Below are positions 20,455-56,399 of a stretch of 64,000 nucleotides of DNA, piece after piece (within the stretch, counting starts at the first letter, position 1; every line of letters begins with the position of its first letter). The translations under genes and the position numbers were made by a program. The notes under the pieces are model-generated. The model made no database searches. It worked only from the letters and a program-made list of their open reading frames with translations, and had not been told where the DNA came from. Source of the stretch: Xiphophorus maculatus (lineage: Eukaryota > Chordata > Actinopteri > Cyprinodontiformes > Poeciliidae). Location of the stretch: NCBI RefSeq assembly GCF_002775205.1, contig NC_036460.1, positions 251,501 through 315,500 on the forward strand. Direction: 5' to 3'.

Positions 20455-20505
20455 CCAGAAACAGCCCAGATCATCACTCTGCCTCCGCCGTGCCTCATCC
20501 ACAAA
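20455..20505 (-). mobile_element. Tc1-like transposase relic, minus strand
   Basis: The minus strand reads GGCACGGCGGAGGCAGAGTG and onward, giving HGGGRVMIWA. This is the Tc1 GGGSVMIWG block with substitutions. It is a short relic. Confidence 0.45.
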
Positions 20506-20509
20506 CCGA

Positions 20510-22700
20510 TTCGCTGCTTTTCGTCTTCTTCAGCTTCCAGACGGTTCTGTTCTGTTTACAGGTCTGAGTGCAGCTTGTGAGATTTAACCAGAAATGTTTC
20601 ACTCTCAGTTAATTCATGAGGTAGAGAAGGATTGTCATTTAAATAATGACATCCTGGTTAAAAATCTGCGTTTTGCATTAATTCAGCTGATGTTTGTAAA
20701 ACTGGTCGACAGGAATCTTCTGAAAACATCAACGCTGCATCAGATAACGAGTGTGAAGCCCTGAGGACGTTACAATGACTCAGCCTGTCGCACGAATACC
20801 TGTCAGAGTTCTGCTGTATTTGTGTTTGTGGTGATGAAACTGCAGTAAAACATCCACAATCCGTCTAAAAAAATCAGTTTCTGAGCTCATTTTTAGTTGC
20901 TCTCAGCTTTGTTTACAGGAGAAACTCAGAGAAATTGTAAACATAGACGTTAATTATGGCTTCAGTCCTGCTGCAACGTTTTAATTTTCACTGACAGGAA
21001 CAACTTGGATCTTCAAGTGGTATTTATAGCCTTCACCAGAATGAGAGAGAGCAAAAATATGAGCATGATGAAATGTATTTTTATGCTTCCTATCTTTGTC
21101 ACCTCTCTGTTTCTGCTAATCTTGTTCAGTGATTGTGAAACTGAGCTGCAGGAAAGAGAAGAGGCGTTTGCTCTGAGAGGCAGCAATATTATACTAATGA
21201 AAAATACTGAGAAACGTTGCTGCATTCGTTAGTGTTATTATTGATGTGAAGCCGTTTATGCTGTCATGTTTTTACAAACAGCAGAAAAATAATCTTTAGA
21301 CAAACAGCAGTCAGGATTTAACCCTAAAATACCCGAGCGAGGACAGGAAGGCCTCCGTCCGTCATCCTGTTTTCACAGGAGTGGATGAAGGAGCGCCGTT
21401 GGATCGGGATCAATCGGAACAGGAAGTTGCAACCCGGAGTCAAAGATGCTCGTTATTTGCAGACGTGGTTCAGAGCAAACAGAACGCGGCGCTGAAGGCT
21501 GCTGGACTTAAAAGGAGAAGATCAGAAGGAAGCAGCTGCACAGATTTAGTTGTTTACATGCGCAGAACATCTGGAGGATGATCTGCAAACCGTGTCACAG
21601 TGCGACTGATTTAACCTGCCGATGGGAGGCTTTTATGGCTGGATTCTGATGCCGGCCCAGACGGATCCAGAACCACTGAGATGATTTAACCGCCCGTTTC
21701 TCCTGTAGGAGCTGACTGCCTGCAGGGGGCGATGGTCATTTCTTCAAACTCAGTCAATCAGCCAAACGTCTGTCTGGCTTTAGGAAAACAAAAATAGGAA
21801 GTTGAGTCTGTTTGCTGAAAACTGATGAGATATTTGAAATCAACTCCTGTAACTTTCTGAAATGTAATAAAAAAAGCAAAACAATCTCCAAATTTCCTAC
21901 AGAGTAAAACTTTCAGTTAAAACTTTTGACAAGTTGAAGACAGTGTCAACACTCGAGTTCAAAAGTATAAAATGTTGTGCAGAACGCTGCTGACAACGCT
22001 CAACTGTTAGCTTTGTTTTGACTGATCTTACCAATATGGAGGATTCTGAAGTGAGACCCAACCAGCTGTAGCTTCAGGTTAAGACAAATTACAAATTAAT
22101 GTTTATGCGACAAAAACTGGTAAAGATTTTAACTCAACAGCAGAAAAACTGCTGAAATGTAATAAAGTGGCAGAAACATTAGAATAGCAAGACTTTAAGC
22201 TGATGTGCATAAATAGTAAGACTGTCAACTGAAAAACGATGAACAAGACAAGATGTTACTAAAGATCCCATTGGTCCAAACAGTTGAAGCAAGTGTTCAA
22301 ACAGGTGTTCAAGTGTGAAAATTGGAAGAAACCTTCCTGCATTGAGGATGGAAAAGATAGAAGATGATCTTAGACCTGCATCACAAGCTGAAGGCAGGAA
22401 TAAAACCTTTGGTAAAATGTAAAAAAATGTGGCACAGGCTTGAAAAGTGTAATCTGTTGACTTAAAGACCAGATGATCTGAGGTTGGAGTTGGATGAAAA
22501 CTGTGGAAATGTCTTGACTTGGTGTCCAACTTAGTGACATGTAACACTAGTGAAACTCTGAAATGCCGTATTTATCACTGGCAACCAAAGAAATGACCTT
22601 GGAGAAATTCGCTCTCACTTTGATGAACAGCTCTTGATTTTACATGGATATGTGGTATTACTATGGATATACATGTAAATTAGCATAAACAGAATGTATT
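20510..22700. other. Intergenic DNA upstream of the first receptor
   Basis: No coding exon or well-defined element was recognised. A 66-codon frame at 21381-21581 is preceded by an AG acceptor-like site but shows no family resemblance. Confidence 0.4.
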
Positions 22701-22709
22701 TCATAAAAC

Positions 22710-22850
22710 TGGCCCAGGGCAGCTGTGGCTACAGTCCAGCAGCCTGTCATCATCAGTGTGTGAATGGGTGAATGAATGTAGTTGAGATCCTCTGGACTTG
22801 ATAACACTCTATACAAGTATAGGCCATTAACCAGTTACCATTTATTAAAG
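22710..22850 (+). repeat. Interspersed fish repeat abutting the first receptor exon
   Basis: The words TGTGTGAATGGGTGAATG, GATCCTCTGGACTTGATAA, CTATACAAGTATAGGCCATT and TTACCATTTA occur in the order of a widespread fish repeat 3' end. It stops about 25 bases before the splice acceptor (AG at 22873-22874) of the receptor exon, so it may sit inside the 5' UTR intron. Confidence 0.55.
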
Positions 22851-22876
22851 CCATCTTGTCTTTTTTGTTGCCAGGA

Positions 22877-23911
22877 ATGGAGACCCTTAATTCGTCTAAC
22901 ACCAACAACCAGTCCGACATTCACAGCATCTTCACCAAGCAGGTCCTTCCCCCTTTCTACATCGCCATCTTTGTTCTGGGCCTGTGTCTAAATGTTGTGG
23001 CTGCCTGGATCTTCTTCAGAGTCCCAGCAGACTCTGGTCTGGTGGTCTACCTGAAGAACATGGTGGTGGCTGACCTGCTCATGCTGCTCTCCTTCCCCTT
23101 CAAGGTGGTTGATTACTTGGGTTATGAGAGTTTCGACCTCGATGTCATCAGGTGTCGCTACACAGCCGTACTCTTCTACTTCTCCATGTATGTTGGAATC
23201 CTCTTCATCGGCTTCATCAGCCTTGAGCGCTACGTCAAGGTTGTTTGCCTCTCCCCTTCCTCCTCCACCATCCCTTCTTCCAGGTCCAGATTCGGTGTTG
23301 TGTCTGTGCTACAGCATATACAGAGGGCCACTTTTGCCCGGGTTCTGGCGGTCCTCACATGGAGCCTGCTCTTCCTGTGCTGTGCCCCCAATGTCATACT
23401 GACAAGCAATCTTGAAGAAAAACAGTCTGGGAAATGTGTGGATTTGAAGACACCACTAGGCAAGGAGTGGCACAAAGTCTCAAGCTATATCAGCGTGTCC
23501 TTGTTCTGGATGACACTTGTTGTTGTGACTTTCTGCTACACATCAATCGCTCGCCAGGTGTGCAAGACGTACCGCCGCATGCGCCGCGACACCATCGACA
23601 TCTGCCGCAAGTCCAACCGCAGCATCTTCAGCATCCTGGTGGTGTTCTTCATCTGCTTTGTGCCATACCACGTCTGCCGCGTGCCGTTCACTCTGAGTCA
23701 GTTCAGCCATTCAGGCTTCACCTCAGATGTCCAATTTTGGCTTTTCCAGATTAAGGAGGGAACGCTCTTCTTGTCGGCGATGAATGTCTGTCTCGACCCT
23801 GTAATCTACTTCCTGATGTGTAGGACTTTCAGAAAGTCCCTGCTGAGGAAACTGTCAGTGAGAGCAAGGAGGAAGTCGCTTACCACTGCTCAGAGTCTTA
23901 GCAACATCTAG
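22877..23911 (+). CDS. P2Y12-like class A GPCR, paralogue A
   Basis: This is a 344-residue seven-transmembrane receptor in one coding exon. The ATG lies two bases after a CCAG acceptor, so a 5' UTR intron is likely, and the paralogue at 29477 has the same layout. Landmarks are Asn39 (TM1), Asp66 (TM2), Cys93/Cys187 (TM3-ECL2 disulfide), Trp162 (TM4), FVPYH with Pro263 (TM6) and DPVIY 307-311 (TM7). His265, Arg268 and Lys293-Glu294 are the 6.52, 6.55 and 7.35-7.36 positions that contact nucleotide in P2Y12. The N-terminus has sequons at Asn5 and Asn11. The closest human proteins are the P2RY12/13/14 and GPR87 group, Gi-coupled receptors for nucleotides or nucleotide sugars at the plasma membrane. 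DRY is replaced by ERY (117-119). Loop ICL2 is about 17 residues longer than in P2RY14 and rich in Ser. The end, LSNI, fits a class I PDZ ligand. The ligand is unknown. Confidence 0.9.
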   Translation: METLNSSNTNNQSDIHSIFTKQVLPPFYIAIFVLGLCLNVVAAWIFFRVPADSGLVVYLKNMVVADLLMLLSFPFKVVDYLGYESFDLDVIRCRYTAVLFYFSMYVGILFIGFISLERYVKVVCLSPSSSTIPSSRSRFGVVSVLQHIQRATFARVLAVLTWSLLFLCCAPNVILTSNLEEKQSGKCVDLKTPLGKEWHKVSSYISVSLFWMTLVVVTFCYTSIARQVCKTYRRMRRDTIDICRKSNRSIFSILVVFFICFVPYHVCRVPFTLSQFSHSGFTSDVQFWLFQIKEGTLFLSAMNVCLDPVIYFLMCRTFRKSLLRKLSVRARRKSLTTAQSLSNI

Positions 23912-24772
23912 GAGAAGAGGACAAGGAGTCAGAGGACAAAGAAATATTTAGCAGCTAAAAAAAAGGGAAGCAAAAGAAAGAAGGCGGTGAGCAGTGACGA
24001 AATCCTTGGCGACTACCCAAACTGGACTATATGGAGACCAAAACCAGTCCTTATGGGCTGGTATCTTTTAGATCTTTCACTTCTCCACCACACCGGAATC
24101 AACTGATAATCTTCCAGATCATCAGCTCCAGATATTAGCATCCATTAAGCTTCAAAGGTGCGTAAAACTTGAACTGTGCAGAAGCCGCAATGATGGACAT
24201 TGTTGCTGAAATTACGTAGTTTGACTATAGTGCCGTGTGGACCTGCAAACGTGCCAAGCTGTCCAGAAAGAAATCTGAGATGATCTGAGCTTTGGAACAG
24301 AGTCCATAATGCTCCTGGGAGATCAGAAGATGGGTCCATTGTGGCCATTAAGGACTGATTATGGTCCACAACAATACTCAGATGGGCCTTAAAGTTTCAG
24401 TGCTGCTCAGTTGGTTCCAAGAAAATATTCCTCCCTACCATTAGACCAACACCAGCAGCCTGAACCAAAGCAGAACGGATCCAGGCCTTCATGTTTACTG
24501 AAATACTGAACAACCAGCTGAACCTGAGACTTTCTGGACCGGGAAACTCATTTGACATCAATAACTACTCATGATCCGATAACCTGCTACTCACTAGATC
24601 TTTTCTCTTTTTCAGAACATTCTCAGAACATTCTCTCTTAATCTGAGAGATGGTTGTGGGTTGAAATCCTCGTAGATCAGCAGGCTCTGAAAAACTCAGA
24701 CCAGCTGTCTTTTTGCTTAGCTTGCAAAACCAGCAAACATGCCTTTTATTTATCTATGTCACTTTTATATTC

Positions 24773-24778
24773 AATAAA
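24773..24778 (+). terminator. Candidate poly(A) signal, receptor A
   Basis: An AATAAA hexamer about 860 bases after the receptor A stop would give a plausible 3' UTR with no competing gene in between. Confidence 0.5.
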
Positions 24779-24959
24779 GCATTAACTTGTGTTGAACTGT
24801 TTTGATTTGGCCCATTTCATGGGGGAACGGTGACGTCTGTTTTTAATTTCACTTTTTCTCTGCTGCCATCTGGTGGCCAAAATCTATAATAGCAGGATTT
24901 CTGCACAGGAGGCGGTCGGTGTGGAGGTAAAGTTTGGCTTTTATCCAGTTAGATGTGTA

Positions 24960-25022
24960 TAGATGATTAGCAGTAGCACATGCCTTGCATCAAGAAGGTC
25001 CCGGGTTCAAATCCCTGATATT
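24960..25022 (+). mobile_element. tRNA-like SINE fragment
   Basis: The words AGAAGGTCCCGGGTTCAAAT and GATTAGCAGTAGCACA resemble the B-box and A-box halves of a tRNA-derived SINE head. No full cloverleaf can be drawn, so this is not a tRNA gene. Confidence 0.4.
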
Positions 25023-25024
25023 TA

Positions 25025-26350
25025 TACACACAAACCTGTATGTAAGAAAAACAAATATTTTATGAGACCAAAATAGAGTTAAAAATCTGATTACTGGGAA
25101 CAAAACATTTAGGACTTACTTTGGGAACAAACTCACTTTAATCATCTAATTGAGTTAAATAAACAACGATAAGTTATGGTGCATGTTAATCTGAGGTTAA
25201 AGTTAAATAACTTGATAAGGATTTTTAGTTTTAAACTGTTACAAAACATCTGGTTGAAACCTTTCTTTAGGAAATCACTGAAAATAATCCTGAAAACAAA
25301 TGAGTAAATAAGACTAAACCATAATGTTGAGTTACTTTTAAAGAGTATAACTTCTAACTGTGCATCTTCATTTTATTGCAAGACTGTTTCACATTAAAAA
25401 TATTGCATTAGTAAATGAAAATCCTAAAAAAAGATTTGAGTTTTTACAGAGTGAAGGAAACTGGTGAACAAAGTTCTTTGAGTAAAATGGGCTTTTGGCA
25501 TTAAAAGTGTTTGTTGGTTTTAAATCCTCAGAAATGAATCTGGTACCAGAGGGAATGTTGTAGAACATGTTGGAGTTTAAAGAGATTTACATTTTTAAAG
25601 GCGTCATCTCCTATAAGTTAAGTTTATTTGTTTCCTGTTCCAAAGAGCTCGACTACGGAGAAGTTCAGGAAACCTGCAGACTCCATCTTCCTTCATGGTT
25701 CAAAAACATATTTTCACTCAGTTCAAAAGTTTTGTTTGAGAACTTTGAACGGATCCAGGCCTCAATATTTAGCATGCTAACGTATCGTTTAGCTGGCTAA
25801 TTATTTAGCGTAAAAATAAGTATTTATCTTGCTAACTAAACATTCAGCTTGGTAGCTAAATATTTAGCCTCTATTTCAATCTTTATCTTTCTAACTAAAC
25901 ATTTAGTTTGCCAACTAGATATTTAACTACCATGTAAACATTTAGCTGCTATTGTGAAGGTTTTCCCATCTGTCTGATCAATACATCTGATTATCAGCTT
26001 CTGACTGATACCGATACTCGACTTTCTGTACAATCACAACTTGAGGGTGATCATCGTCAAGACAAAGCAAACAGACGGAACCATCAGGAAACCACTTCCT
26101 GATGTTTTGGTCGCACCTTCTGTTATGAAGCCACAGACTCGACTGTCTCACCCTCCGCTTTTCACCTGCTTCAGCAGGATGAGCCATCTTCACATCTTCT
26201 TCTACTTTGACATTTTCTCCTGAAGTGGACTTGGAGAAGTAAAAGAGAGCAGAATTAACCCAGATTCTGGCCCGGTTTCTTCTTTAAAGAACACAAACAA
26301 GAATCTGGCACTTCAGATATGTGGGAACTTTTACGCTGACAAAAGAAAAA
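25025..26350. other. Intergenic DNA, partly TTAGCT-rich
   Basis: No exon was recognised. From about 25770 to 25950 the sequence is a degenerate TTAGCT/GCTAACTAAA low-complexity tract, which resumes at about 26570-26760 after a SINE. Confidence 0.5.
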
Positions 26351-26354
26351 TTGC

Positions 26355-26525
26355 ATTGTCATCATTTTTTAATTTTATTGGCTCTAGTGGCCTTTATTTG
26401 ATCATTAATTGACAGGAAAGTGGGTAATGAGAAGACATGCGGCAAAGGCCGCCAGACCGGGAATCGAACCTGCGACGGCCACATCGAGGACGAAGGTCTC
26501 TGCTCAACCCCGGCGCCACCACAGC
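26355..26525 (-). mobile_element. tRNA-derived SINE, minus strand
   Basis: Read on the minus strand, the order is GGTGGCGCCGGGGTTGAGCA (A-box side), GTCGCAGGTTCGATTCCCGG (B-box), CTTTGCCGCATGTCTTCT, CACTTTCCTGTC, then TCAAATAAAGGCCACTAGAG. This is the standard structure of a common fish SINE. Copies of the same family occur at 29125-29240 and 56505-56640. Confidence 0.75.
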
Positions 26526-27164
26526 ACAACCATCATCAGTTATTCATATCTAAATGTTACAGTTTTAAACTCATTTTAATTAGCGGGATATATATTTAGC
26601 CTCAAACTAAATCTTTAGCTTGCTACTAAATATGTACCAAGCTAAGTATTTAGTTTCATAGCTAAATTTAGTCAGCAAGGAAAATATTTAGAATTAAACT
26701 AAATCTTTAGCTTAACTTAGATAGGAGGCTAGCTGTTTAGCTTAAAACTCCAACATGAAAAGCAGGCTGAAGATGTGACTGAAGAAAGAAACCAGTTTAT
26801 TTCTAAATAGGCTAAATAAGCCAAATTATTGCTGGTAATCTGTGATCAGCTCCAGATGCTCCCTGTCCTGTAAAAACCCTGAATCTGTATTTATATGAAA
26901 CTGGACCAATAAAGCTGGTTCTGATCTTGTTGCTGATTCCTTGGCCTCCGGCCATCAACGCTGTTACCCGGTTAACTAATGTTCATCATGAGTGTCAGTC
27001 GTGTTTATTCAGTTTTGCATCCGATTTTCATAATTTGTTTTTAGATGTTTGTTAACCGGATCGGGTTTCCTCGGTGCTGCTCTCTTCAGGTTTGTTTTTT
27101 TCATCCTAACCAGTTAAGAGTCTGACACCAGCTCAGCACCATCATGGAAATGTCTGAAATGAGT

Positions 27165-27345
27165 GTTTGTTTCAGGAAGGTGTGGTTTGTGGTCACACTG
27201 ACGATTGCAGCAACATGCTGCGAATGGACAGGAAAGCAGATTCTCTGCAGCAACACAGAGAATTAAGTCAACGGGTCGGAGCCGAGCAGAACCAGGACTC
27301 CGGGTCTGAGAGCCAGAGAGACAACGGCAGGGGGGAAGGTCCAAT
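27165..27345 (+). repeat. Dispersed block also found at 50389-50590
   Basis: The block shares, in the same order, GTGGTCACACTGACGA, CTGCAGCAAC and GGGTCTGAGAGCCAGAGA with the block at 50389-50590. Each copy lies 2-3 kb upstream of a receptor coding region on the same strand. It could be a transposon piece or a duplicated 5' exon or promoter. Confidence 0.55.
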
Positions 27346-28358
27346 TCCAACCCTCTCACACGCAGCCAGAGGTGGGTGGCGCAACCCAAACACTGGATTC
27401 AAGTAAGAGTAGCACTCCATCATGTTTTCCTAAAACCCGGGTCCGTTAAGTTACTCAGGTAAGACTGGAGGTATATTTGGTAAAATACGTTTAACAAATA
27501 CTTGGTAAAAGTACCAAAAGAAGCAGACTTCAGTGAAGTCACCTTGATGACATTTTTAAAGTTATGTGTATATTCTAGTATTTTAAATACTAATAAATAA
27601 ATATCAGATTGGGGCATAAGAAAATTTTATTTACTGTATAAAACTTGGAAAACTTTTTATTTAATTTCCCTTTTGGGATTAATAAAGTATTTATGGATTG
27701 AATTGTTACTTCCGATGACTCTACGGTGTTTACTGTATGTTCAGTCGGCCTCATCATGGCTGGCAGGTAGAAAGTTAAAACAACAAAGCTGGTGTAAGGA
27801 CAGGAGGTCTCACTTCAACACAAACTGGAGGTGTCAGAGTTTGGTGCATGTTTCCTTTCCATTCAGTCAGATTACTCACAGTGTGTAAAGTATACAGGAA
27901 GTTTACTTCAAAACAACATTAATCATGTAAAAGTAAAAAGTATGTATGTTATAAATAAATGTATGTTTTCCTCCAAATAGTCACTCAATTAACAAGTGGT
28001 GAGATATTGTTCCCTCAAACTCAGAATGCTGGACAAAAACAAATAAAATGAAGGATGACTCCTAATTTCTGTACAAAGATGATATAACTACTCAGTCATG
28101 CAACACTGTTTGGGAGTGGGGGTCAGAGGTCAGGGGGATCTGTCCGTTCTGGGATTCTGATGGTTCTGAGACATGTATTTAAAATCAATTTGAAAGTTTG
28201 AAGCTTTCTGAAGCCCTGTCTCCAGGAAGTCATCAAAACATTCTCCTCTATTAACACGTTAACGTTTTTACCAGCGCTACTCTGAGCAGTAGCTCCTATG
28301 ACGAGCTCAGCAGGTCCACCAGGTGTTTGCTAATTGCTACTGGCTAGTCTGAAGGATC
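27346..28358. other. Intergenic DNA between receptors A and B
   Basis: The sequence is AT-rich with no exon or element that I could name. Confidence 0.4.
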
Positions 28359-28488
28359 TGAGGGGGGAGGAGCTGCTCCTTGAAGGCGGGGCTAGGGTCA
28401 TCCCAGTGTTATGCAGCTGAATGGTTGCCATGGAGATTAAAGGATTTCTCAAACATCCATGAAAGAATCAAAGCAAAACTCCAGGTTT
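28359..28488 (+). repeat. Interspersed repeat, copy 1
   Basis: The segment shares GGAGGAGCTGC, GAAGGCGGGGCTA, AGCTGAATGGTTGCCATGGA and AAAGGATTTCTCAAACAT with 42088-42210, in the same order. It is a dispersed repeat of unknown class. Confidence 0.7.
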
Positions 28489-29124
28489 GTATCTGATGAA
28501 AAACAAGATGGTGCCTCGCTAAGCAACAATGTATTTGTCTCTGTTCACGTTGGCTAGTTAAAGGTTTGGCCAGCCCTGGCCTGTGGTGATGTGCAGAGAG
28601 GAAACTGACGGAACGGCTCTTCCTCTAACATGGTAACAGAGACCTCAGTGCTTCCACCACACCTGGATTCAGGTGAGGGAGGCTGGTAACGGAGGTTACT
28701 CCAGGTGTCTCCGTCTCTGCCCACACTGACGTTAACATGGTCGAGGACAATCTGGGAATCATCAGACGGCATCTTCCAGTCTGATCAACTGGACCACGAC
28801 CAGAACAACAGTCTGGTTTTCTGGCCGGACACACAGAGCTGCACACAGAGGCAGATTTGCCTAACAAATGACTCATGCAAAAGTTGTCCCACTGTGCACA
28901 AAGATCACTTCTACTGAAGCAGCTGGGAAGATCACTACCGTGTTTTAACTGGCAACCAAAAACAGCATATGTGGCATTTCAGCACCATTAAGTGGAATTG
29001 GAGATTTGCATGCGATGCATAAAACCAGTTTGATGATCTGTTGTTTTCCCACTGACTGGTTTTGATATCTGACGTCAAACTGGCAGCTGATGACAGCAGT
29101 CACAAGCAACAGATAGAAATGGAC

Positions 29125-29240
29125 TTAAATGTTTTCATGTGGTGGTCGCAGGTTCGACTCCTGGCCTGGCGATCTTTCCCTTCTCTCGTTGCCCTCTTTC
29201 CTGTCGAACTACTTTCAAATAAAGGCCAATAGAAACAACA
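29125..29240 (+). mobile_element. tRNA-derived SINE, truncated, plus strand
   Basis: The order is GTCGCAGGTTCGACTCCTGG, CCTGGCGATCTTT, CTTTCCTGTC, then TCAAATAAAGGCCAATAGA. It matches the SINE at 26355-26525 but lacks most of the A-box side. It lies about 240 bases before the exon of receptor B. Confidence 0.7.
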
Positions 29241-29476
29241 AAACCTTTACAAAAAAACCTGAGTTAATTGAACAACTTCCTAACCTTTACTGCTATTATT
29301 GCCGAGGTTTTAGGCTCAGCAGATCCCGGGAACTTAACGATCAGGCAATCATTTAAAAATGTAACTCAGTTAATCTAAGCATACCAATTCTGTAAGAGGA
29401 CTTCAGTCTTGAATAAAAATTGCTTTGAAGTTTTATTAAACATATTTGCATCATGTGTTATTGATCTTTTCCAGGT

Positions 29477-30625
29477 ATGGACCTCTTTAACTGCTCCAAG
29501 CTCTCCACCAACAAAACCAGCAGTAGCACTGTCTTCACCAACCAGGTCCTCCCGTCGTTCTACATCGTCCTCTTCGTTGTGGGTGTGGTGCTAAATGGCA
29601 TGGCCGCCTGGATCTTCTTCAGAGTCCCAGCAGATTCTGCTCTGGTGGTCTACCTGAAGAACATGGTGGTGGCTGACCTGCTCATGCTGCTCTCCTTTCC
29701 CGTCAGGGTGGCGGTGAAAATGGGCTTCAACTGCTGCCACCTTTGGATTTTTAACTGCCAATTCAATGCCGTGCTCTTCTATATGTCCATGTATGTAGGA
29801 ATGCTCTTCATAGGCTACATCAGCCTTGAGCGCTATGTCAAGATTTTCCAACATGCATCTTCCTCCACAAGCACCTCCTCATTCAAGATGAAATGTAGTG
29901 GAGTGTCTGATCTAAATCTTATGCAGAATACCACCTTTGCACAGGTTCTGGCGGTCCTCACCTGGGGTCTTCTCTTCTTATACTCTGCACCCAACGCCAT
30001 GCTGGCAACCTGGCCAGCCAAAGACCATAACTTCACAAAATGCATGCAGCTGAAGACGCCACTTGGTGCCCAGTGGCACAGAGTATCCGTCCTTATTAAC
30101 ATGTCTCTATTCTCGGTAACACTACTTATCGTAGGCTTCTCCTACACCTTCATAGCTTACCAGGTCTACAAGACGTACCGCTGCATGCGGCGCGACAGCA
30201 GGGGCATCTACCGGAACTCCAACCGCAACATCTTCAGCATTCTGGCAGTTTTCTTTGTCTGCTTTGTGCCGTATCACGTCTGCCGCGTGCCTTACACCAT
30301 GAGTCAGATGTCATCATCAAGCTTCAGCGAAGATACCAGTATCCTGCTTCACCAGATCAAAGAGGGAACTCTATTCCTGTTGGTGACGAATGTCTGCCTA
30401 GACCCCCTGATCTACTTCCTAATGTGTCGAAACTTCAGAAAGTCGCTTATAAGAAAACTGTCCAGTAAAAAAAGGAGGAAGCCTCCGCCAACCAATCAGA
30501 GTCTGAGCAACATGCAGAGGGGGGGATGGAGGAATGGATGCAAAGCAGGAGGAGACACTGAAAGAGAAGACAAGGACAGAGTAGATCCTGGAAGAGGAGG
30601 CAATCAGAGCACAGCAGATCCTTGA
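29477..30625 (+). CDS. P2Y12-like class A GPCR, paralogue B
   Basis: This is a 382-residue receptor in one coding exon, with a CCAG acceptor two bases before the ATG as in paralogue A. Landmarks are Asn40, Asp67, Cys94/Cys189, ERY 118-120, Trp163, FVPYH with Pro265, Lys295-Glu296 and DPLIY 309-313. His267 and Arg270 complete the nucleotide-pocket signature of the P2Y12 group. Sequons at Asn5 and Asn12 mark the outside N-terminus. It shares with paralogue A the extended Ser-rich ICL2 (44 residues from Arg3.50 to Trp4.50, against 27 in P2RY14) and long stretches of TM1-TM2. After SLSN, where paralogue A stops, this protein continues for about 36 hydrophilic residues, so the PDZ-like end is lost. 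The two genes are clearly a tandem duplicate pair. Gi coupling and nucleotide-type ligands are inferred from the family only. Confidence 0.9.
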
Positions 30626-30994
30626 TGCCCAAAAAGAGTCTGGGCAACATCTTGGCCAACAGGAGACAGAAGGATGAACATTTTTGTGCACCAATGGAGA
30701 AAGAAACTGGCGAGGAATCTTCAAATCGAGAACATTTGTGAGGCCAAAGTTGTGGTCCAAAAAACATTATGGATGGTAGGAACCTCTATTTAGGGGAAAG
30801 TTGGTGCTCTCCGTGTCCTTAAAAGATTCTCTTGTTGCACTGAGACAAGAAAATACCAACCAAATCAGGACACAGAGAGACTTTGTGTAAGTGGTGACTC
30901 TGAAGATATTAGTCACCATAAAGGTTTCACACAATGAGTTTTTGTTGTCTTTGTCGTGACTATATGAGTTCTGTATGTGAAATAATAAGCTGGT

Positions 30995-31000
30995 AATAAA
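30995..31000 (+). terminator. Candidate poly(A) signal, receptor B
   Basis: An AATAAA hexamer lies 370 bases after the receptor B stop. Confidence 0.5.
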
Positions 31001-31004
31001 AAAC

Positions 31005-32790
31005 TGCCTAACTTCAGAGCCTTCTTTCTGTCTTGTTTGGCTTTAAGTTTGTTGAGATGATCAGAAAAAGCACCAAACGGCTCTTGGAGGCCTGAAAAGT
31101 TTATGACATGCAGGAGATCCAGATCAGAAGATTCTCTGAGGAAAGGAGGAGGATCATCCTCAGAGGTTTCATGTCAGGATTTGAAGTAGCAGAAAACTAA
31201 AAAGTGGATATTTTGTCATCTGGTTGTTGGAGACACTGCAGATCCTCCTTGATGGAGAACCTGGTGAAGGTGATGTTTTGTGTCTTTACCTCAACCTGCA
31301 GGTTTCCTCCAGCAGGTGGAAACTTGATGTTCTGCACTCTAGCAAGACATCAAGAAGTCTTTGGAAAAGAAACAGCATCACAGAGGTTCAAGTTTCAGTG
31401 GATCTAAACTTTAAATGACTGCTGACTGTATATTTTCTTTAAGGCTTTTTCTGACTTATAAAGGTCAACATTTCTCTGTTTTAGCTGCAGATTCTCTGGT
31501 TTTTCCTGTTTTGAACAGTAGCACAAAGAAATAGGCCTCATTTTTATATCATACATGTATTTATATCCCATTAAAACAGGAAGTTATGGATAGCTTATTA
31601 AAAACTCCTGGAAAAGTAAAGTATTTACAAAAAATATCACTTGTATTTATCTAACAAAAATATTGGGGGTGCCAGTAATTGTGCAAACAGTGATTTTATC
31701 AGGATTATTTTGTTGAATTAAAGTCCAGAATGGCTGCATTGACGCACGAACCTCTAATTTTTAATGTCTTTGCTGCCATCTAGTGTTTAAAGTGTGTAAC
31801 AACATAAACCTGCATGCAGAAACGATTCTACCCTGAAGTTTTCCTTCCCCATGAATTGACATCTTCATTAGTCTGTATGAGACAAACAGCTTTATTGTTG
31901 GGATATTGTTGTTCATATGCATTTTACTGGTTTTGTGTAATAAAATCTTACAAATCAACTTCTAAACAAACAATAATAAAATAAACACAGACATTCTAAC
32001 TGTTAGCCAGAACTATTATTATTATTATTATTATATTTGTCACTGTCTTGTTTTTATCTTTAACTTTTTTCCTCATTTAGCCACACAGTGGTGCAGTAAT
32101 GTTCATAACCACCAGAGGGCAGCACAGACTGGTACATTTTCCCGTTTTTTCTCCTTTTTAAAAATCTTTGAATATCAGGTGAGAATCCAACAGATTCCAT
32201 TTATTTCTGCTTAAATAATCAATCCGATAGAATCACTTAATGTCCTTGACAGGAAGTCAGTTTTGCTCCCAATAACTGCAACATAAAACACACAGGATCT
32301 ATTCTGATGAGAACCAAGAGCAGTGAAGTTGTTGGGGATAAAAATCTTCCCTGTATTAAACCGGTTTCAAACACATTTACTGTTTCATAAGATTCATTGG
32401 CTCTGATTCATTTTAAAGTTATTTTAATTTTTACCAGAAATGAAGTAAAAATCACGTTAAGTTTTGTTCTGTTTGTTAAGTTTAGATTGTAATGAAAATG
32501 AATCTCAGAGAATAAAGTCGGGGCGGTCCGGTTTGGTTCATTCAGCTGGTTGGACTCCTGGTCTGAACCAGAACTGTTGACTTTCCCAGCAGGAGCCAAA
32601 CAGCTGCTCCTCTTCCTGCTGCGGTTTGTCTAATCTTGATGTTTTTCTCTCTTCAGGGAGAATCCCTGCAGACTTCCTGGTAGCAGGAATGCTGCCTCAC
32701 AACCGGCTCCTCAGATCGGACCGATAAGGAAAGAAAATAAACCTCAACCGGTTTTCTGAGAAACAATCTGTTAAAAATGTTAGGAGGGAG
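31005..32790. other. Intergenic DNA downstream of receptor B
   Basis: No gene was recognised. CTCF-like cores occur at 31773-31785 (imperfect) and 32109-32122, and a short ATT run lies near 32010-32035. Confidence 0.4.
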
Positions 32791-32799
32791 CTACTTTAA

Positions 32800-32880
32800 G
32801 CTAAACTGGTGGCACTGCTGGGTTGTGGGTTCAAATCCCAGCCTCTTTCTGCATGGAGTCTGCATGTGACTGTTGGTTGC
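32800..32880 (+). mobile_element. tRNA-related SINE-type repeat, fragment
   Basis: GGTGGCACTG, GTGGGTTCAAATCCCAGCC and TCTTTCTGCATGGAGT follow the order of the same fish repeat family seen on the opposite strand at 16055-16290. The B-box is intact but the rest is truncated. Confidence 0.55.
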
Positions 32881-33945: not shown

Positions 33946-33984
33946 AGCTGCTGTCAGCCAGCAGATCAGTAGAGGAGATGGATA

Positions 33985-40948: not shown

Positions 40949-43900
40949 ATGAATAACAGTAACTCCACCGAATGTGAACCAGTTCACAAATCGACCAACA
41001 CCTTCTTCATGGTGATCTACAGTCTTATTTTTCTGGTGAGTGTTTGGTTGGAGCTTCGTTGTTCGTTGTTGGCGCTGCAGTGTGACTCGGTTCCTGTCGT
41101 CCTCAGGTGGGTTTGATCCTGAACGGATTCACGCTGCGGGTTTATTTCTGCGTGTCGCAGCGCCGGGCGTCCAGCAGCGTCACCGTCTTCCTGAAGAACC
41201 TGGCGGCCTCCGACTTCCTCATCAGCCTCTGCCTCCCGCTGCGCATCATAAACTTCGCCACCAACTCCACCCTCATCCGACAGGTCTACTGCAACTTCGG
41301 CGCCTCCGCGTTTTACCTCAACATGTACGCCAGCATCCTGTTCATGGGCTACATCGCCGCCAACAGGTAGGCCTGAGCTATCACCAGCATCGACCAGAAA
41401 CAACCAACTGAAAGCATCCCAGATTATTTTCAGCTCATTCCAACACATTACAAGAAGAAAGCAACCCAAAAATTCATTCAATCTTTCATTTGCATATTAT
41501 CTGCCAAAGTTATACAGAAACAGAATAAAACACTATTTATGTCCTGGATCCTCTGCATAGAGATTATGTAAAGATATAAAAATTATGACGTTCTTCGGCT
41601 GACAGATGACAAATTATGCATTCTAGAAATGCAGAAATAGATTTAAAATCAGAACATACTGTAGCTTCTCTTCTGTCTGTACGGCTGACAACCTGAGTTC
41701 CCCGGGGATTTCCGCTGCCGGTGAAAAACCTTTATTTTCAGTTTTTATTGGTTTCTTCTGCTTTTCCTTTCAGAACTTCAGTTTGTTAGTTTCCTTCTTG
41801 CTGCAGAATCTGGAACCTTTACTCAGCAGTTTGAAGCCCAGAATGACGCAGCTTTACAAGAAATCTGATTTAATTTTTATTTTAAGTAGAAGAAAGTCTC
41901 CAAGGGAAAGCAACAGGAAGCCGGAGTCCTCTGCAGAGTCTTGGGTTAAATTAGCTGCATTAAGAAATAATTTACTTAGGGGAAGCTAAGTGTGCTGCAG
42001 GGGCAGAGTTATGCATATAGTATCATTTTATAGCACAATCATCTATGTTACCTTCTGCTGTAATAGAAATGTTGTTTATATCAGCTCAGAGGAGGAGCTG
42101 CGCCTGGAAGGCGGGGCTAAGTCCAGCCACGCATTTCCCAGCTGAATGGTTGCCATGGAGATGAAAGGATTTCTCAAACATGAAATAACCAAAGCAACAC
42201 TCCATGTTTGATTTAGATGAGGGAATAACATGATGAAAAGATCAAAAACTACAACATTAAATGAAAAATTAGCTCCAATATTTAGCAGAAATGTTCCCAC
42301 CACTGTGGATTAGATTAGAAAGGAAACACTGGACATAAGTATGGATGTTGTATTAGTAGAAAACTGAAATGAGTTGATAAAATCCATAGAAGTTAAGATT
42401 ATACATAACAAACAAAAATAATAATAAAATCTAGAATAAGGAACAATATTCTTATTATTAACAACCAAAACAAAAATAAAATAGTTGAATATGAATAGAT
42501 ATTACAAATGTTGCTAAATTGACAAATAAAATACTATACAGTGAGATATAAACCAGCTAGAGTGAATTTTGCTTCCAGACCATCTGACCTCTGACCTCTG
42601 GCCTTTCAGGAAGCCTCACCATCTGGTTTAGTTCTCATTCGAGAGACGAATACACTGACAGCAGCGCAAATAAATGAGGTTATTTATTCTCAAAAGGAAC
42701 AATCTTCTCTGAGTGGCAAAAAAGAAAGAAGATAAAGTTTTAAGTAGCATTTTGTTACTTGACTTGTCAGTATAAAACAACTTTAACGCTCCTGGCCAAT
42801 AAAATCTGCTGTACAGCTGCATTTGTTTTATAAAGAATATGGTTTTTTACATATTTGATAAAACTGTCACCATGTCGTGTTGGTTGGGACAGATGAAGAA
42901 ATGAATCAAAAACAACCAATCAGAGCCAGGAGGAGGGTCTTAATGCTGTCACTCAACCTTGTGAATGTGCTGCTAAATGTGCTGCTGGTGGAGAAACAGC
43001 TTATGGTTCCAGGAAAAGCGTTTATCCACCGTCATCGAAGGCTATGCTAACTAGTCTTAGCATCACGACAGGATCTGCAGATGGAAAAAGCTGTAGCAGA
43101 ACTGAGCAAAGGATTTAGATCAAATGAGCAGCACTACATGGAGAGGTGATTAACAGCGCTAAGACCCGCCTCCTGGTTCTGACTGGTTGCTTTTATCATT
43201 GGGAGAAGGCAAAAGAGCTTGATTTTTTTTCACACATTATTTGTCTCATAGCAAGTTGTCACGACTGCAGACAGCTTGAAACGTGTGAAAATATATTTTA
43301 TATAAAAGTTGCATAGAGCAGCTTTAACAGGACTGAAAAAACAAAGAGAAACGCTGAAATAAAACTGTACAAACAACAACAGCTCAAAGACAAGGCAGAT
43401 AAACATCGTTACCTTAACGATGCTAACGTTATTAGCGTCGTTAGCTTAGCTTCGTTCGTAGATGGTAGATCATCTGTTTCAGAGATTAGTTACCGAACAT
43501 CCCGAATCTCGTCTAAACTCTGTCTTCTCCCTCCGGCCTCGGCTCCATGTCCTCTCGTTTGTCTTTTCCCGTCAGAAGGCGCCACAGCACATAAACAACG
43601 ATGTTCCCACTTCCTGGAACTTTAGAGCTTAGTACAGAGGAACAGCTCCACCTGCTGACGGAAACAAGAACTACAGCAAGTGGTGAAATAAAAGCAAGAT
43701 AGCATTTATTAAATACTTTTCTCAGGCATGAATTTTTACACGTTTGCATGTTTTATTCTTTTCCTTGTCTCTTCTGTCTGACAGACGGAGGATATAACTG
43801 ATAATGGCTGATATAACATTTGATCTCACTGATAATTTAGCAAAAATTAGCACAAAATTTAAGCTACTGCACTTTGAATAAAATTCTGTTTCTGTTCTAA

Positions 43901-45257
43901 TCTGGAACAAACATCCAGAAAACTGCAAAACTGTTGAAACACCGAGAACCAAGTTACATTAGAGCTACTGTAGATAATCAGCAGTATTGATTATTATGGT
44001 CTGGATTATAACTTTTTATGATCTCTCTTCACAATAACAATGTTATGACCTGTTGGATCAACGTCAGGCAGAAAATAATTTTTTGTATTTTTTTTAATGT
44101 TAAAATGTTAAGTTAAATTGCTTACATAATCTTACAGTGAAAAGTTTTGGTTTTACTCCAGACAGTTAAAAAAATTCTTATGTTTTATTTTTTCTAAAGC
44201 TTTCGATGGGAAAAGGGACTTGGCCATTCAACTCCCTCAGTCTGATTTTCTCAGTCCACTCCCTGAAGTTATGCAGAGGGGAATCCTGTTGTTTTCATGC
44301 TCCCACTGAGCCGCTGCTGTTTTATGATGAGTGGAAAGTAATGTGAGTCATTTTATACTCTGAGTGTTTGGCAGCGCATGTGACGGTTCTGTAACTCAAA
44401 CATCTGGATTCCAGGAAAATGTGGGCAGGTTGTTCGACATCCTTCTGGCTCAGGTTGGGTGAAATATGAGGCGTTATCATCTAACAAAAAAAATAAGTGT
44501 GTTTAAAATCTATCCGGTCAGCGTTTTGAGCTCAGACTGCGTCTTTATTGGTCTTGACTTGTTTAAGATCATCCAGGCTGTGATTCATTAGAGCTGAAGC
44601 AGGAATTACAGACCAAACAGACCCAGAGCTTCAGCTGGGATTTTTCCACTTCCCTGTTTGCACAAGTTCATTTTATATCTGATTGTTGCCAGGGCAACAA
44701 GATCACTGCTATGTAAAGAACAACAAGAAAATATTAAAACAGAGCCGGACGTGTCTGAGCCCGACGGCTGGTTCGGTCTGTTTACTTCCTGTTTCTTGTG
44801 GGCGTGGCCTGCCTCCCTCCTCTAATGCTAATCGGAGCATCTTGTGCTAAATTTGCACAGTTTTGCATGTATCTGTGTGGTCAGAGTCTCAGGAGCTGCA
44901 GATCAGATACCAGATCAGGTCTTCATGTGAGCACATTAACATGAGATTCACACGCTGAAAGTCGAGAAGAGGGTTTAAGGATGTGGTTTAGCGAACGCAG
45001 ACGAAGCTTCATGCTAACTTCCTGATGTTTGCTGCTCAGCACTAGAGCTGAAATGTCTTTTGTTCTGAAAACTCAGAGCTGTGCTGTGAAATGGCTGCAT
45101 GCACTGAGCCCGGTTGTGGTTCTGCTGGACCAGAACCCAGCAGAACCAGATCCAGCTTCCTGTTTTTCCTCTCTGCTGTTGCCATATGCATGAGGGGTTG
45201 CTGCAAAGTCAACGACACAATGCGAGCGTCAGTCAGTCCGTCAGTCAGTCCGTCCGT

Positions 45258-45314
<57 letters not shown>

Positions 45315-47822
45315 AGTCCGTCAGTCCGTCAGTCAGTCCGTCAGTCAGTCAGTCAGTCAGTGTCCTGATGGTCCAGGAGGAGAGACGGCTCCAGGCTCTG
45401 CTGGGTTTCCCATAGAAAACTCTTAATTTGAAAAGCTGAGCTTGATAACTAGGATCAATGGAAAGTTTTTTTTAAGTGCTTCTAGTTTCCTGGAGGTTTT
45501 TCTTTTCCACTCATTTTCAGTCCAGCCCTGTTTTTGTTTGAACCATTCAGGAATATGAAGCCTCCTAATCTCAGTTTAGTCAAAACATAAAGAAGTGAAT
45601 TTAAGATCGAACCAAGATGCTTTACTACCAGCACCTTTCTACAAGGCGACTTGTTCACATTTTAAAATGTTAACCATGAAAACTGAGAGGTTACACTCTA
45701 ACAGAAAAATACTCCAACTAACTGATGTGTAAAGCGCCGTTAGCTCAGACTCAGTCGACCCAGCTGAGAATCTGGCTTTTTCTGAACATGAATCCAAATA
45801 GGTATAATAATCTGATATCTATTTTCATCTCTACAGCTGCTTTCAAACTCGGCCTGTGAAGTTACCTGCCTGCCACGTTGTACGAACTGTGGACAGACTT
45901 GGCTCTTGTTGCCTGTTTCGGATCGTATTTTACTTCTTTTCTTTCCTTTTTTATCTCCATCTTGAAACCTTTGGACTTTGCTGCTCGAACCTTTAGGGCC
46001 TGAGAGTATTTTACATTCAGAGTCTGAAACGTTTCATCTACAGAACCAAACAATCTTCTCTGTTTTGAAGGTTTTGTTCTTTTCTGAATTTTTTTACTGG
46101 CAGCTGCTGGTTTGACTGAGTAAATCCTTAGATTGTTTGTTTGTGTCAGTTCTGGCCAAAAACACAGAATCACTGTGCTGGGATTGCTGGATTGGTGTGA
46201 CAGTCTGGACTTGTAGAAGTGGGTAAATGTACGGTTGAGGCGGCTAAGGTTTCGGTTTTGGATGTTCAGTGATGTTGTGATTAAACTTTGATGCTACGTA
46301 TCGCTTTATATCCGTCCAGCCATCTGTCTTCTCCCACTCCTCACCTGAAACCAGGTGGTGGAGACTAATCCTCCTTCAGCTGGTGTAAGATAATCTCCCA
46401 AATTATAATTCTGGCTGGAGCGTCTTATCCAGGAACGAGTCCAGAAAGCATCTATGATCCCTGAACCTCAGCAGCTCCTTTAAATACATTTATTTTCCTC
46501 TTTTAAATGGTCCGACACCAACTATGTCAGAGTTCTGAGTTTCAACATGAAACTGGCTCTACTCTACTGCCCTCTAGTGGAATTACAACACAAATATAAT
46601 TCATTTGCTCCAAACTTAAGAAGAACCTTAAAAATGGATTTTAATATAAATTACTGTTTATTTGTTTGGTTCTTTTTGTCATTGATGTAATTCTTAGGCT
46701 GGTTTTTATCTCTTATCTTTTCTGTGTCTAATTTTAATGTTTCTTGCTGCTTCATCTGCTAGTTTCATATAAAGGTACTGTGAATAGTTTTTGTAGATCA
46801 AACGTAGTTTAAACCAGACTTTTAAGAATAATTAACACAAACCAAACCTTTGACACGTGAAGGTGAGTCGGTCTCCAGAGTCACTGCTTTCTGTTTTGAT
46901 TAAACTGGTTTTTGTCTGTAACAGGAAGTCCTGGTCCTAAACAACCACAAAACCCCCATTAAACAGTGACAATGATTTAACTATAATCAGTCTGTTGAGG
47001 GAAACTTCACATCCTGAACATGTCAGCCTAGTTTTTACCCAAACCACAGCTGGAATCAGTTTTACTGGGTTTTTCCTTTATGACGGCTCTTTTTCCTGCA
47101 GGTACATGAAGATCGTCCATCCTTTGGGAAATCACTTCATCCACAAGGCCCGAGCCGCTTACATCATCTCCATCTTGACGTGGGGTTTCCTCCTGACGAT
47201 GACCAGCACCTACGTGATCCTCTCCCTCCTCACCCAGAAGTCTCAGGAGAATCTACCCGGTACGGTCAGCTGTGACGTCCTGCACAGCGTTCAGCTCAGA
47301 CTGCTCTACAAGGTCATCCACGCCTGCTCCGCCGCCATCTTCTTGGCCGTCCTCATCAGCCTCATCTGGTTCTACTACAGCACCTCCCGCAGGCTGGCGC
47401 AGGCACAGAAGAATCAGTCGATTACCAGCAACTCCAAGAAGCTCGCTAAGTCCCGGCGGAACATGCTGGTTCTGGTCACGGTCTTCTGCATCTGCTTTGT
47501 CCCCTACCACCTGATTCGCCTTCCCTACGCCTTCATGAAGACGCTGGTCTGCTCCTGGAATGGGTGGTTCTGGTACCTGAAGGAGCTGACCGTCCTGGTG
47601 TCGGTCCTCAACGTCTGCTTGGACCCTCTCATCTACTTCATCTTCTGCAAGGCGTTCCGGGCCCAGATGAGCATGAGGTCTTCAAGGAGCATCAACAACA
47701 CGGACAGTCCGACGCAGGTGGACACCACCGACAGGCGGAGCAGCGACGGATGGATGAACTCCCTCAGGAACCTCAGGAAGTTGTCAGTCGTCTCACTGAC
47801 TAAGCAAACCACCGTGGTGTAG
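40949..47822 (+). CDS. P2Y12-like class A GPCR with three coding exons
   Basis: The exons are 40949-41035, 41107-41366 and 47102-47822, all GT-AG, giving 355 residues. Intron 1 is only 71 bp and falls within TM1. Intron 2 is 5.7 kb, splits the Arg3.50 codon (phase 2) and holds repeats (42088-42210, 45228-45360). Landmarks are Asn35, Asp65, Cys91/Cys173, Trp143, FVPYH with Pro250, His252, Arg255, Lys276-Glu277 and DPLIY 290-294. These place it in the P2Y12-like branch of P2RY12/13/14, GPR87, GPR34 and GPR171, but I cannot name the orthologue. DRY is NRY (Asn115), an acidic-to-amide change at a position that controls the inactive state in many receptors. The N-terminus has NNS and NST sequons. 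The C-terminus TTVV fits a class I PDZ ligand. An in-frame upstream ATG at 40892 would add 19 residues. I chose 40949 because the shorter N-terminus looks typical. Confidence 0.88.
42088..42210 (+). repeat. Interspersed repeat, copy 2
   Basis: This is the second copy of the repeat at 28359-28488, lying in intron 2 of the third receptor. The shared words are in the same order, with small indels. Confidence 0.7.
45228..45361. repeat. (GTCA)n / (GTCC)n microsatellite
   Basis: About 33 tetranucleotide units of CAGT with interspersed CCGT variants lie in intron 2 of the third receptor. The open frames here (runs of VSQS) are products of the repeat. Confidence 0.95.
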
Positions 47823-53490: not shown

Positions 53491-56399
53491 ATGGAGCTGA
53501 TCACGGTGCTCCACTCCTCCAACATCACCCCTACAGGAGGACCTGCAGAGAACCCATGCATCGTCAACGACCAGATGGGTCCCTTCATCGTCCTCTACAT
53601 CCTCATCTTCACCTTGGGCCTGCCTGGGAGCCTGCTGTCTGTCTGGGGGTTCATCCAAAGCCGCAGGTCTCAGGTGGGACAGCAGATCTCGTCTTGAAGC
53701 TGTGATTTCCATTTCTCTCAGTGATATTCCTGCTGTGTCTCTATAAACACTGATTACCAACTAGAACCAGTTTGACAGATTTTATTGATCACAATGGACA
53801 AATATTTGGTCAGTATTCAGAAATAGGATCATTTTGTGTTATGGTTCTGAGACCAAAGCCTTCCTGGAAAGTCCTCAGAACATTCTTCCAGAAGACTTGA
53901 TGATCATCAAGATGTTTTCTGGTAAATGTGGGATCAGCTTTGTTTTCTTCTGGGTCAGTAGTGGTTCTGGTCTTGACCTCCCACATGGAGGCCATTTTTC
54001 TCTGTTTCTAATTGATAAATCATGACATTGGACCTTAACTGAGGCCTCTTCTTCTCTTTAGTCTTTGACTAAAGGCCTTGAGCCATTTCTCCTGCTAAAG
54101 CTAGGCTAGCACATTTGTTTTGGTTGTATTTAGGTTCTCTCCATGTTCCACTGCATTTCTAAAGCCTCAAATTTTATGTCAATGACTTTTTCTTTAGATT
54201 GGGATACGATGTGATGCTTGGGATCTTTTACCTACTTCATGTTGTCAGTTACTTTTAAAGAAATGCCACAATTCTACAATCTGACAATAATCATGCATTT
54301 ATTTGACAAGTGATTTCTGTTTTTAGATTTGTTTGATGGCCTGAAACATTTCACTGTGAAAACAAATCTCACCTCACCAACATACTCAGGCATGCTGGCC
54401 TGAGTATGTAGCCTTGTACATTCTCTGCTGACGGTTGAGATTTCATGGTTGAGCATATTGAAATTTCTGTATTTTCCACAATTCAAGTAGATACTAACAA
54501 GTTTGATGAGCTAGTTTTGCTCCTAGCCCTCTGTCTTCTCACCAAGGTAGTCTCTACACCTGTAAGTGCGGTCACTGTAGTGGTAGTCCAGCTAAAGAGT
54601 GTTAACCTTATCGGTTCGCCGTCACACAAAAAAAAGAGTTAGATGTGAACACGCTGAGGAGATTACTGTGCGACACAGTATACAATCATAAAGATGTACC
54701 TTTGCGCAGATGTGTCCAGCGGACGTCCACTTTCAGCAGGTGTGGACCTCCACGAAGTGAAGTACCTGGGAGTAAGCCATGGTTGCTTATGGAGGGATGA
54801 AGTAGCTGAGTGTTTCACAGATCCCTGGCTTACTCTCTGGTATAGTTTGACTTAATTTGATGTTTGACATTCTGGATGTCTTGGTTGTGTCTCAGCAGAA
54901 GCACAGCACCTACGTCTACCTGGTCAACCTGCTTGTGGCCGACATCCTGCTGCTCTTTGCCCTCCCATTTAAGATCCTTAAGGACCTTGGCTCAGCATCA
55001 TGGAATCTCATGGTGTTCCACTGCCAGGCCAGCGGCGTCATCATATACATCAGCCTTTACGCATCCATTGCCTTCCTTGCCTTCATCATTGTAGACCGCT
55101 ACCTGAAGGTAGAGCAGGACATTCAGTGAGGACCATCTGTGTCTGTGACTGTGGTTTCATGACTCTGTTCTGCTGCAGGACCACCACACGGCGCGCTCTC
55201 TGCGGCTGCAGGAGTCCAGCTTCGCCTGGCTGTTGACAATGGTGGTCTGGATCTTGCTGCTGCTTATCATGGTGCCCAATATGGTGCTTCCCACAAAGGA
55301 CTACAAGGTACCACAACTTCTACTGATATCAGATGTATGATAGAAGTGAGGTCTTATCGCCTGTAACAGCAGCAAAGTTTTCTGAGTCTGACTTCGGTCT
55401 TATAACAACAGACCAAACAAATTTCCACCCTGACCACAGGAGAAGTGAACACCAGGTGTTTTCAATGGGAGAGGAAATCCAGCTCAGTAAAACGTGACAC
55501 TGAAAAGGTTTTGGCTGAGGAAGTTATAGTTATGCTGTAGCAATGCAGTGGACAGTTTGGGTGGATGAAAAAAATTAAACCCAAATGCCTAGCCCTCCAG
55601 GAATGGAGGGTTCTGGACCAGTCTTGGTCTCAGAAGAACCAAAGTTCACTTCAACTGACCCAAGATCTAAGTTTGTACATGGACCAGAATTCATTCTTTT
55701 GTTCTACATCGGAGACCAAGTGTGCATTCACCTCCCACAAAGAACCAGACTTGCAAGACAAGTGAACCAGAGTTCAATTAAGGCAGACTAAACAGGGCTG
55801 ATGTGAAGGGTCCCAAAGGTCCTTTAGATTTTCCATGGCCTCTAACTGAAAGTGTTTCTGCTTTCTCTGTTCAGGTGACAAAGTACCTCAGCTGTTCATC
55901 TTTGAAGGAGAAAATCAGCCTCCACTGGCACACTCTGACCGTGTTTCTCAACACAGCCCTCTTCCTCAACGCCTCTGCAGCCGTGCTCATCTCCAGCGCC
56001 CTGGCCCTCAAAAGACTCCTGCACAGTCACAGCGACCCCAAACTGTGGCTGGATGCCAGGAGGGTGGTGCTGAGTGTGACGGCAATGGCGCTGGCCTACA
56101 CCCTCAGCTTCGTTCCCTACCATGTGGTGCGGACGCCGTACACTCTGGCCCAGGCCGAGGTCATCAAGAACTGCCAGACCAAGAGGCAGCTGTTTCTGGG
56201 GAAGGAGTCCACGCTGTTCCTGAGCCTGCTCCACGTCTGCCTCGACCCGCTTCTCTTCTTCAACCTGGATGCTGCGTTCAGAGAAACAGTCAGGAGGCTC
56301 CTTCGCCGCAGCAGAAACCAGGCCGTTGAAGCAGATCAGCAGGTTGTGCAGGAAGTGATGCTGCCAAAAGTTCATGCAGAGGAGGATACTGCGGTCTAA
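53491..56399 (+). CDS. gpr171: GPR171-like class A GPCR, four coding exons
   Basis: The exons are 53491-53673, 54899-55108, 55179-55307 and 55875-56399. All introns are GT-AG, phase 0, giving 348 residues. A CAGCAG acceptor at exon 2 would allow one extra Gln. The match to GPR171 is specific. TM1 has GS where most receptors have the conserved Asn (GPR171 shares this). FHCQ before TM3, VPNM, then KD in ECL2, SFVPYHVVRTPYTLAQAEVI (human ...FVPYHIVRIPYTLSQTEVI) and the Lys-Glu of TM7 (284-285) agree in order. Other landmarks are Asp76, DRY 127-129, Trp155, Cys103/Cys181 and Pro255. GPR171 is a Gi-coupled receptor linked to the peptide BigLEN. That ligand link is from mammals. The TM7 motif is DPLLF (298-302), so the NPxxY tyrosine is Phe. 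The tail ends in DTAV, a class I PDZ consensus. The human coding region is one exon, so the three introns are notable. Confidence 0.85.

Follow-up and report, generated by a model that had tools for sequence, protein, structure and literature searches.

The window analysed here is a 64,000-nucleotide (nt) stretch of the Xiphophorus maculatus genome (contig NC_036460.1, called C18 below; C18:251501-315500), part of a searched genome of 704 Mb in 101 contigs, and it contains two tandem receptor genes, A and B, that share an insertion of about 17 residues in the second intracellular loop (ICL2). Receptor A lies on the + strand at 22877..23911 (ATG at 22877, stop codon ending at 23911) as a single intact open reading frame (ORF) of 344 amino acids. 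Its tandem paralogue, receptor B, lies on the same strand at 29477..30625 (ATG at 29477, stop codon ending at 30625), again as a single intact ORF, of 382 amino acids. With the 7tm_1 profile A scores 102.1 bits and B 87.7 bits against a curated cut-off of 30.5, which places both among the class A (rhodopsin-like) G protein-coupled receptors (GPCRs), and both belong to the P2Y12 group within that class. The two proteins are 60% identical, with a synonymous divergence (dS) of 0.65. Comparison of the DNA around them (20001-28400 versus 28401-36000) gives one match of 988 columns (73.7%) that covers the coding part and spans the insert, whereas in the flanks similarity is gone except for a single inverted match of 113 columns. 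Given such flanks and a coding match of only 73.7%, the duplication is not recent. At its C-terminus B continues for 36 residues (30515-30625) beyond the site equivalent to the end of A, and this charged tail resembles former 3' sequence brought into the frame by read-through.

Between Arg3.50 and Trp4.50, A (23228..23362, + strand) and B (29831..29965, + strand) each have 44 residues. The ORF translations bear out what a sequence-only reading of this DNA had proposed, as does the spacing of 27 in P2RY14 and, after splice modelling, in C and D, the remaining receptors of the window. For D an automatic rule stopped at an earlier Trp and returned 20; the conserved Trp gives 27. In phmmer alignments the span of A is 17 residues longer than that of each solved P2RY14, P2RY12, P2RY13 and GPR34 chain. 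The additional segment was also rightly described as Ser-rich, as Ser and Thr together account for 8/17 of the aligned 17-residue core in A and 9/17 in B, versus about 17% across the aligned proteins, and it is hydrophilic and partly basic. Against a profile of 11 relatives (two GPR34-like receptors, L111 and L112, and receptor D being left out) the best gap placements start 11-14 residues after Arg3.50, and in A a start at +6 is nearly as good. One placement puts the 17 codons of A (CLSPSSSTIPSSRSRFG) at 23246..23296, with the gap position uncertain by about 8 residues, and alignment with A then puts those of B at 29849..29899, both on the + strand. At position +7 from Arg3.50, where nine of 14 relatives have Pro, A has Leu and B has His. 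Tandem Repeats Finder (TRF) run over 22800-30700 returned five rows with a score of at least 30, none of them inside an insert, and the possibility that the insert is a TRF-detectable tandem-repeat array was rejected on that ground. Internal duplication of flanking loop codons as the source of the insert was judged by eye only and is unsupported. The insertion in A and B is thus confirmed as real and unusual in length. A and B align through it without gaps, and because of this and its equal length the insertion, common to both paralogues, probably predates their duplication, as had been suggested, in a comparison that holds no outgroup species. We did not find this ICL2 insertion described in the published literature, as judged by titles and abstract openings.

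In order to assess how rare such a spacing is, we compared 14 other members of the P2Y12 group, eight from this genome and six human. The spacing is 27 in 12 of them, including all six human receptors (P2RY12, P2RY13, P2RY14, GPR34, GPR87 and GPR171; the P2RY13 sequence was verified), and 28 and 34 in the two GPR34-like receptors. A spacing of 27 is usual for the group, though not strictly defining, and A and B depart from it with 44, as the only two of ten group members read in this genome to do so at that length. Searching the genome with A also uncovered a second set of group members, clustered at C18:24.62-24.64 Mb and containing p2ry12 (exons in L106 and L105, with L109 between them), two p2ry13-like single ORFs (L107 and L108) and a three-exon p2ry13 (L110), and the spacing is 27 in all four genes. 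L107 and L108 (C18:24.63 Mb) are diverged receptors with a single ORF apiece, situated near the intron-containing p2ry13, and L108 reads PLHILRIP where relatives show P(F/Y)H..RIP or similar. For a genome-wide sample we went down the list of 149 match rows by score and read 80 receptors, leaving out 69 rows; some partial matches and tandem copies were skipped, and the sample therefore leans towards ordinary receptors. Taking the Trp nearest to a spacing of 27, we obtained 25 in three receptors, 26 in three, 27 in 66, 28 in two, 29 in five and 30 in one, with one of those scored 26 (L074) better read as 33. Five additional genome matches of A have spacings of 27, 27, 27, 28 and 34. Altogether, these 85 receptors, C and D, and the four genes of the second cluster make 91, with a maximum of 34, and within this sample 44 is an outlier.

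The P2Y12-like group consists of P2RY12, P2RY13, P2RY14, GPR87, GPR171, GPR34 and GPR82, according to PMC3247265. The closest solved relatives of A and B are P2RY14, P2RY12 and P2RY13, followed by GPR34, ahead of other receptors, and the best solved match is P2RY14 (9ydu and others; 2.2e-77 for A and 5.3e-70 for B). Both proteins have PYH..R.P(Y/F)T..Q in the sixth transmembrane helix (TM6) and, where TM7 begins, KE (QIKEG), which we take to be nucleotide-site residues of the group. A and B are sisters (100/100), and in a ten-row tree they join human GPR87 with moderate support (82/87). In a fourteen-row tree, built with the insert removed and, like the profile, leaving out L111 and L112, the P2RY12/13 clade excludes them (95/95) and they are separate from the pairing of GPR171 with D (100/99), while the fish p2ry12, on this contig at a distance of 24 Mb, groups with its human counterpart P2RY12 (96/95). 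A and B as P2RY12 orthologues were rejected, given this position and the presence of a fish p2ry12 elsewhere. Among the human receptors compared, those nearest to A are GPR87 (42% identity) and P2RY14 (41%), and those nearest to B are P2RY14 (37%) and GPR87 (36%). By these comparisons A and B are nearest GPR87 and P2RY14, and the label "P2Y12-like" in the sequence-only reading is right for the group and wrong for the gene.

A segment of this kind could be removed from the transcript as an intron, which would leave a mature loop of normal length, so we enumerated all frame-keeping excisions of 42-57 nt within the Arg3.50-Trp4.50 interval that are bounded by GT-AG, GC-AG or AT-AC pairs. A allows two such excisions, one bounded by GT-AG and the other by AT-AC, each of 42 nt and leading to a spacing of 30, and no enumerated pair restores 27. 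In B, GT-AG boundaries would cut out 51 or 42 nt and AT-AC boundaries 51, 54 or 42 nt. An in-frame excision that gives 27 is thus offered by weak 51-nt pairs in B alone, and not by both genes. The GT-AG pair of that length, TAT/GTCAAG ... TTCAAG/AT (slashes mark the splice boundaries), would remove exactly 51 nt (29837-29887) in frame and leave R-Y-M-K with a spacing of 27. B also contains an AT-AC pair of equal length, and in MC2R of fish "ultrasmall" introns have been reported (PMC3151243). However, the donor of the GT-AG pair deviates from the consensus, and the excision would delete V-K-I-F, the equivalent of x-K-(I/V)-V in several relatives. A gap directly after R-Y also ranks only 20th of 29 placements against the profile of 11 relatives, and both of the short introns that were measured in this window are longer, at 70 and 71 nt versus 51 nt. 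With no counterpart in A that gives 27, we rejected the spliced-intron reading for the pair, and consider removal of the segment as an ultrashort intron in B very improbable. As far as the sequence can tell, the insert is coding, in agreement with what had been proposed.

Introns do interrupt the neighbouring receptors, whose exon models come from splice modelling on sequence alone. Receptor C, of the P2Y12 group, is modelled with three coding exons on the + strand (40949..47822; exons 40949-41035, 41107-41366 and 47102-47822). Its short intron of 71 nt (41036-41106) lies in TM1 and its second intron, of 5.7 kb (41367-47101), lies inside the Arg3.50 codon (AAC AG/G TAC). Receptor D is gpr171-like and modelled with four coding exons (53491..56399, + strand; exons 53491-53673, 54896-55108, 55179-55307 and 55875-56399), and its 70-nt ICL2 intron (55109..55178) follows directly after Lys3.53 in phase 0, at a site where human GPR171 is presumably intronless. 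These introns lie close to the insert of A and B, six codons (C) and two codons (D) before its earliest placement, and raise the question of whether the segment is a former intron, gained in ICL2 and later turned into coding sequence; this would concern its origin and not its function. In A, AAG/GTTGTT is followed 44 nt on by TTCTTCCAG/G, and the insert holds a 36-nt stretch of 92% pyrimidine that ends in TTCTTCC and then AG/G, resembling a 3' splice site; across the window, only about 0.01% of stretches of this length are as rich in pyrimidine. Fishes with compact genomes are known from published work to have gained introns, also at the Asp-Arg-Tyr (DRY) motif (PMC3151243). Nevertheless, the GTT GTT codons encode the Val-Val or Ile-Val of several relatives, and a donor-like site in A is therefore expected from the protein. 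The 44 nt are not divisible by three, Ser codons of the TCC type produce pyrimidine tracts anyway, and in B the pyrimidine content is only 69%, a value reached at 5.4% of window positions. We regard an origin by exonization of an intron as unlikely.

The four receptors lie on one strand in the order A, B, C, D, and no further match to the group was found within 264 kb at an expectation value (E) of 1e-4. A search of the same 264 kb around the window for MED12L, presumably the host gene of this receptor cluster in human, gave nothing at E 1e-4 with two stretches of its paralogue MED12, which is a weak query. For the ORF at 9128-9913 (- strand) the best solved match, with E 0.21, is not convincing, and no relative of A was confirmed in collections of viral and prokaryotic contigs, as expected. 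A 20-bp minisatellite of 16 copies (97% match) at 59477-59798 opens a repetitive ORF (59352-60014, - strand). Elsewhere on C18, about five receptor-like matches to A stand in tandem (G000 C18:2003562-2038507); they are interrupted between TM3 and TM4, a hint of an intron close to the DRY region.

In known class A complexes, a short helix of ICL2, together with a hydrophobic residue that follows a proline, packs against the G protein and against arrestin. The reading that we tentatively favour, with somewhat less than even confidence, is that in A and B the insertion forms a flexible, possibly phosphorylated loop that would weakly tune coupling and have no strict sequence requirement. The common ancestor of A and B, a receptor near GPR87 and P2RY14, would have acquired some 51 nt of coding DNA in ICL2, exchanging the usual tight loop for a Ser/Thr-rich, partly basic extension, and the proline at +7 is absent. 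If translated as read, the segment may be flexible and displaced outside the G-protein footprint, where kinases such as protein kinase C (PKC) or GPCR kinases (GRKs) could phosphorylate it, and phosphorylation could then lower G-protein coupling or aid arrestin binding.

We sought to determine whether the divergence of A and B carries a trace of selection on the insert. Nonsynonymous divergence (dN) is 0.69 (0.42-1.17) in the insert and 0.26 (0.22-0.31) in the remainder, corresponding to dN/dS ratios of 0.75 (95% range 0.21-2.33) and 0.41 (0.31-0.56), respectively. Of 328 windows of equal size, 17 reach the proportion of nonsynonymous differences (pN) of the insert; those other than the insert are located around residues 76-80, 169-175 and 272-276, which are taken to be extracellular loops. 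This near-neutral rate argues against a tightly constrained motif in the insert. Composition was compared with neutral simulations, which are approximate because they start at one paralogue and place the whole change on one branch. At a divergence of 0.65, drift predicts Ser+Thr totals of 4.7 (starting from A) and 4.6 (starting from B), versus 9 observed in B and 8 in A (P = 0.018 for at least 9 from A and 0.051 for at least 8 from B); the corresponding values are 0.038 and 0.101 at a divergence of 0.45 and 0.011 and 0.025 at 0.9. These totals hint, but no more than hint, that the composition of the insert rather than its sequence has been maintained. The number of shared basic residues (two) is not above drift (P = 0.19 and 0.16). 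The pattern S/T-x-[RK]-x-[RK], picked after viewing the alignment, occurs at homologous positions in A (S134/R136/R138) and B (S135/K137/K139), with a probability of retention under drift of 0.079 and 0.075 at a divergence of 0.65, 0.14 at 0.45 and 0.04 at 0.9, and we take S-x-[RK]-x-[RK] in both receptors to fit a minimal PKC consensus.

The same data accommodate a loop extension that is tolerated and functionally near-neutral, drifting in frame in an ICL2 that accepts hydrophilic residues at the membrane edge, and in our ranking this is nearly as likely as the tuning loop. The raised dN and the few windows with a comparable pN are what it predicts. On the other side stand the contacts of ICL2 with G proteins and arrestins and, as weak points, the equal length of the insert in A and B and the Ser/Thr totals above the neutral expectation. 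Several further observations weigh against the tuning loop, or against parts of the account on which it builds. Constraint on the insert is unproven because the range of its dN/dS is wide. Only 3 of 17 insert residues are identical between A and B, when drift at a divergence of 0.65 gives a mean of 5.5 starting from A and of 5.1 starting from B, and the number of positions with Ser or Thr in both receptors (five) does not exceed the drift expectation (P = 0.21 and 0.28); both values are as expected in the absence of constraint. The Ser/Thr excess could itself stem from mutation bias in TCC-rich DNA. An AlphaFold2 model of A with B reached a predicted local distance difference test (pLDDT) score of 41 and was not used. 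The top gap placement against the profile lies inside the Ser run, making the 17 residues named above one option among several, and 5 of 14 relatives likewise do without the proline at +7. Lengthened loops also occur elsewhere in the group: L111 (C24:7388930-7389817) has an Arg-rich ICL2 with a spacing of 34, a second, smaller extension, and L112 has a spacing of 28 in a match that holds one in-frame stop, perhaps an intron (the GPR34-like type of both is a reading of their sequence). Finally, the fourteen-row tree does not resolve the grouping with GPR87, since A and B share an unresolved fork with both GPR87 and GPR34.

In its boldest form the tuning-loop reading would make A and B a fish pair of GPR87/P2RY14 type in which a phosphorylatable ICL2 replaces the KP(F/L) G-protein contact, possibly derived from an intron captured where the sister genes gained introns. 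We hold this combination to be a long shot. If true, these receptors would have a built-in switch located in ICL2, whereas in most receptors phosphorylation sites are found in the tail or in the third intracellular loop. The length of ICL2 is strongly conserved (exactly 27 in 66/80 receptors sampled in this genome), and a natural Ser-rich extension of 17 residues is therefore a ready-made test; without the usual motif, the loop of A and B probes what extent of ICL2 is required for coupling to G proteins and arrestins. It would also bear on GPR87, the ligand assignment of which is still debated.

Among known systems, human GPR87 shares PYHxCR in TM6 with both A and B and CRYTxVLFY in TM3 with A only, and differs from them in its spacing of 27 and in retaining KPF; the PDB matches listed include no chain of GPR87. 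P2RY14 differs from A in an ICL2 that is 17 residues shorter and in the presence of KPLW. P2RY12, in human and in the fish copy at C18:24.64 Mb, belongs to the same receptor group as A and B, but forms a clade with P2RY13 that excludes them and has a spacing of 27. The GPR34-like L111 is similar in having a lengthened ICL2, but with seven extra residues instead of 17, and Arg-rich instead of Ser-rich. The local order of A, B, C and the gpr171-like D resembles that of the human cluster, which we take to be GPR171-P2RY14-GPR87. According to PMC3151243, intron gains in fishes with compact genomes affect the DRY motif of MC2R, MC5R and CHRM3 and other positions of P2Y2, P2Y3-like and P2Y6. The intron in the Arg3.50 codon of C is a DRY intron like those published for other fish GPCRs, the same part of the gene is affected, and C and D look like further cases. 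Those gains are spliced introns, however, whereas the insert of A and B reads as coding sequence.

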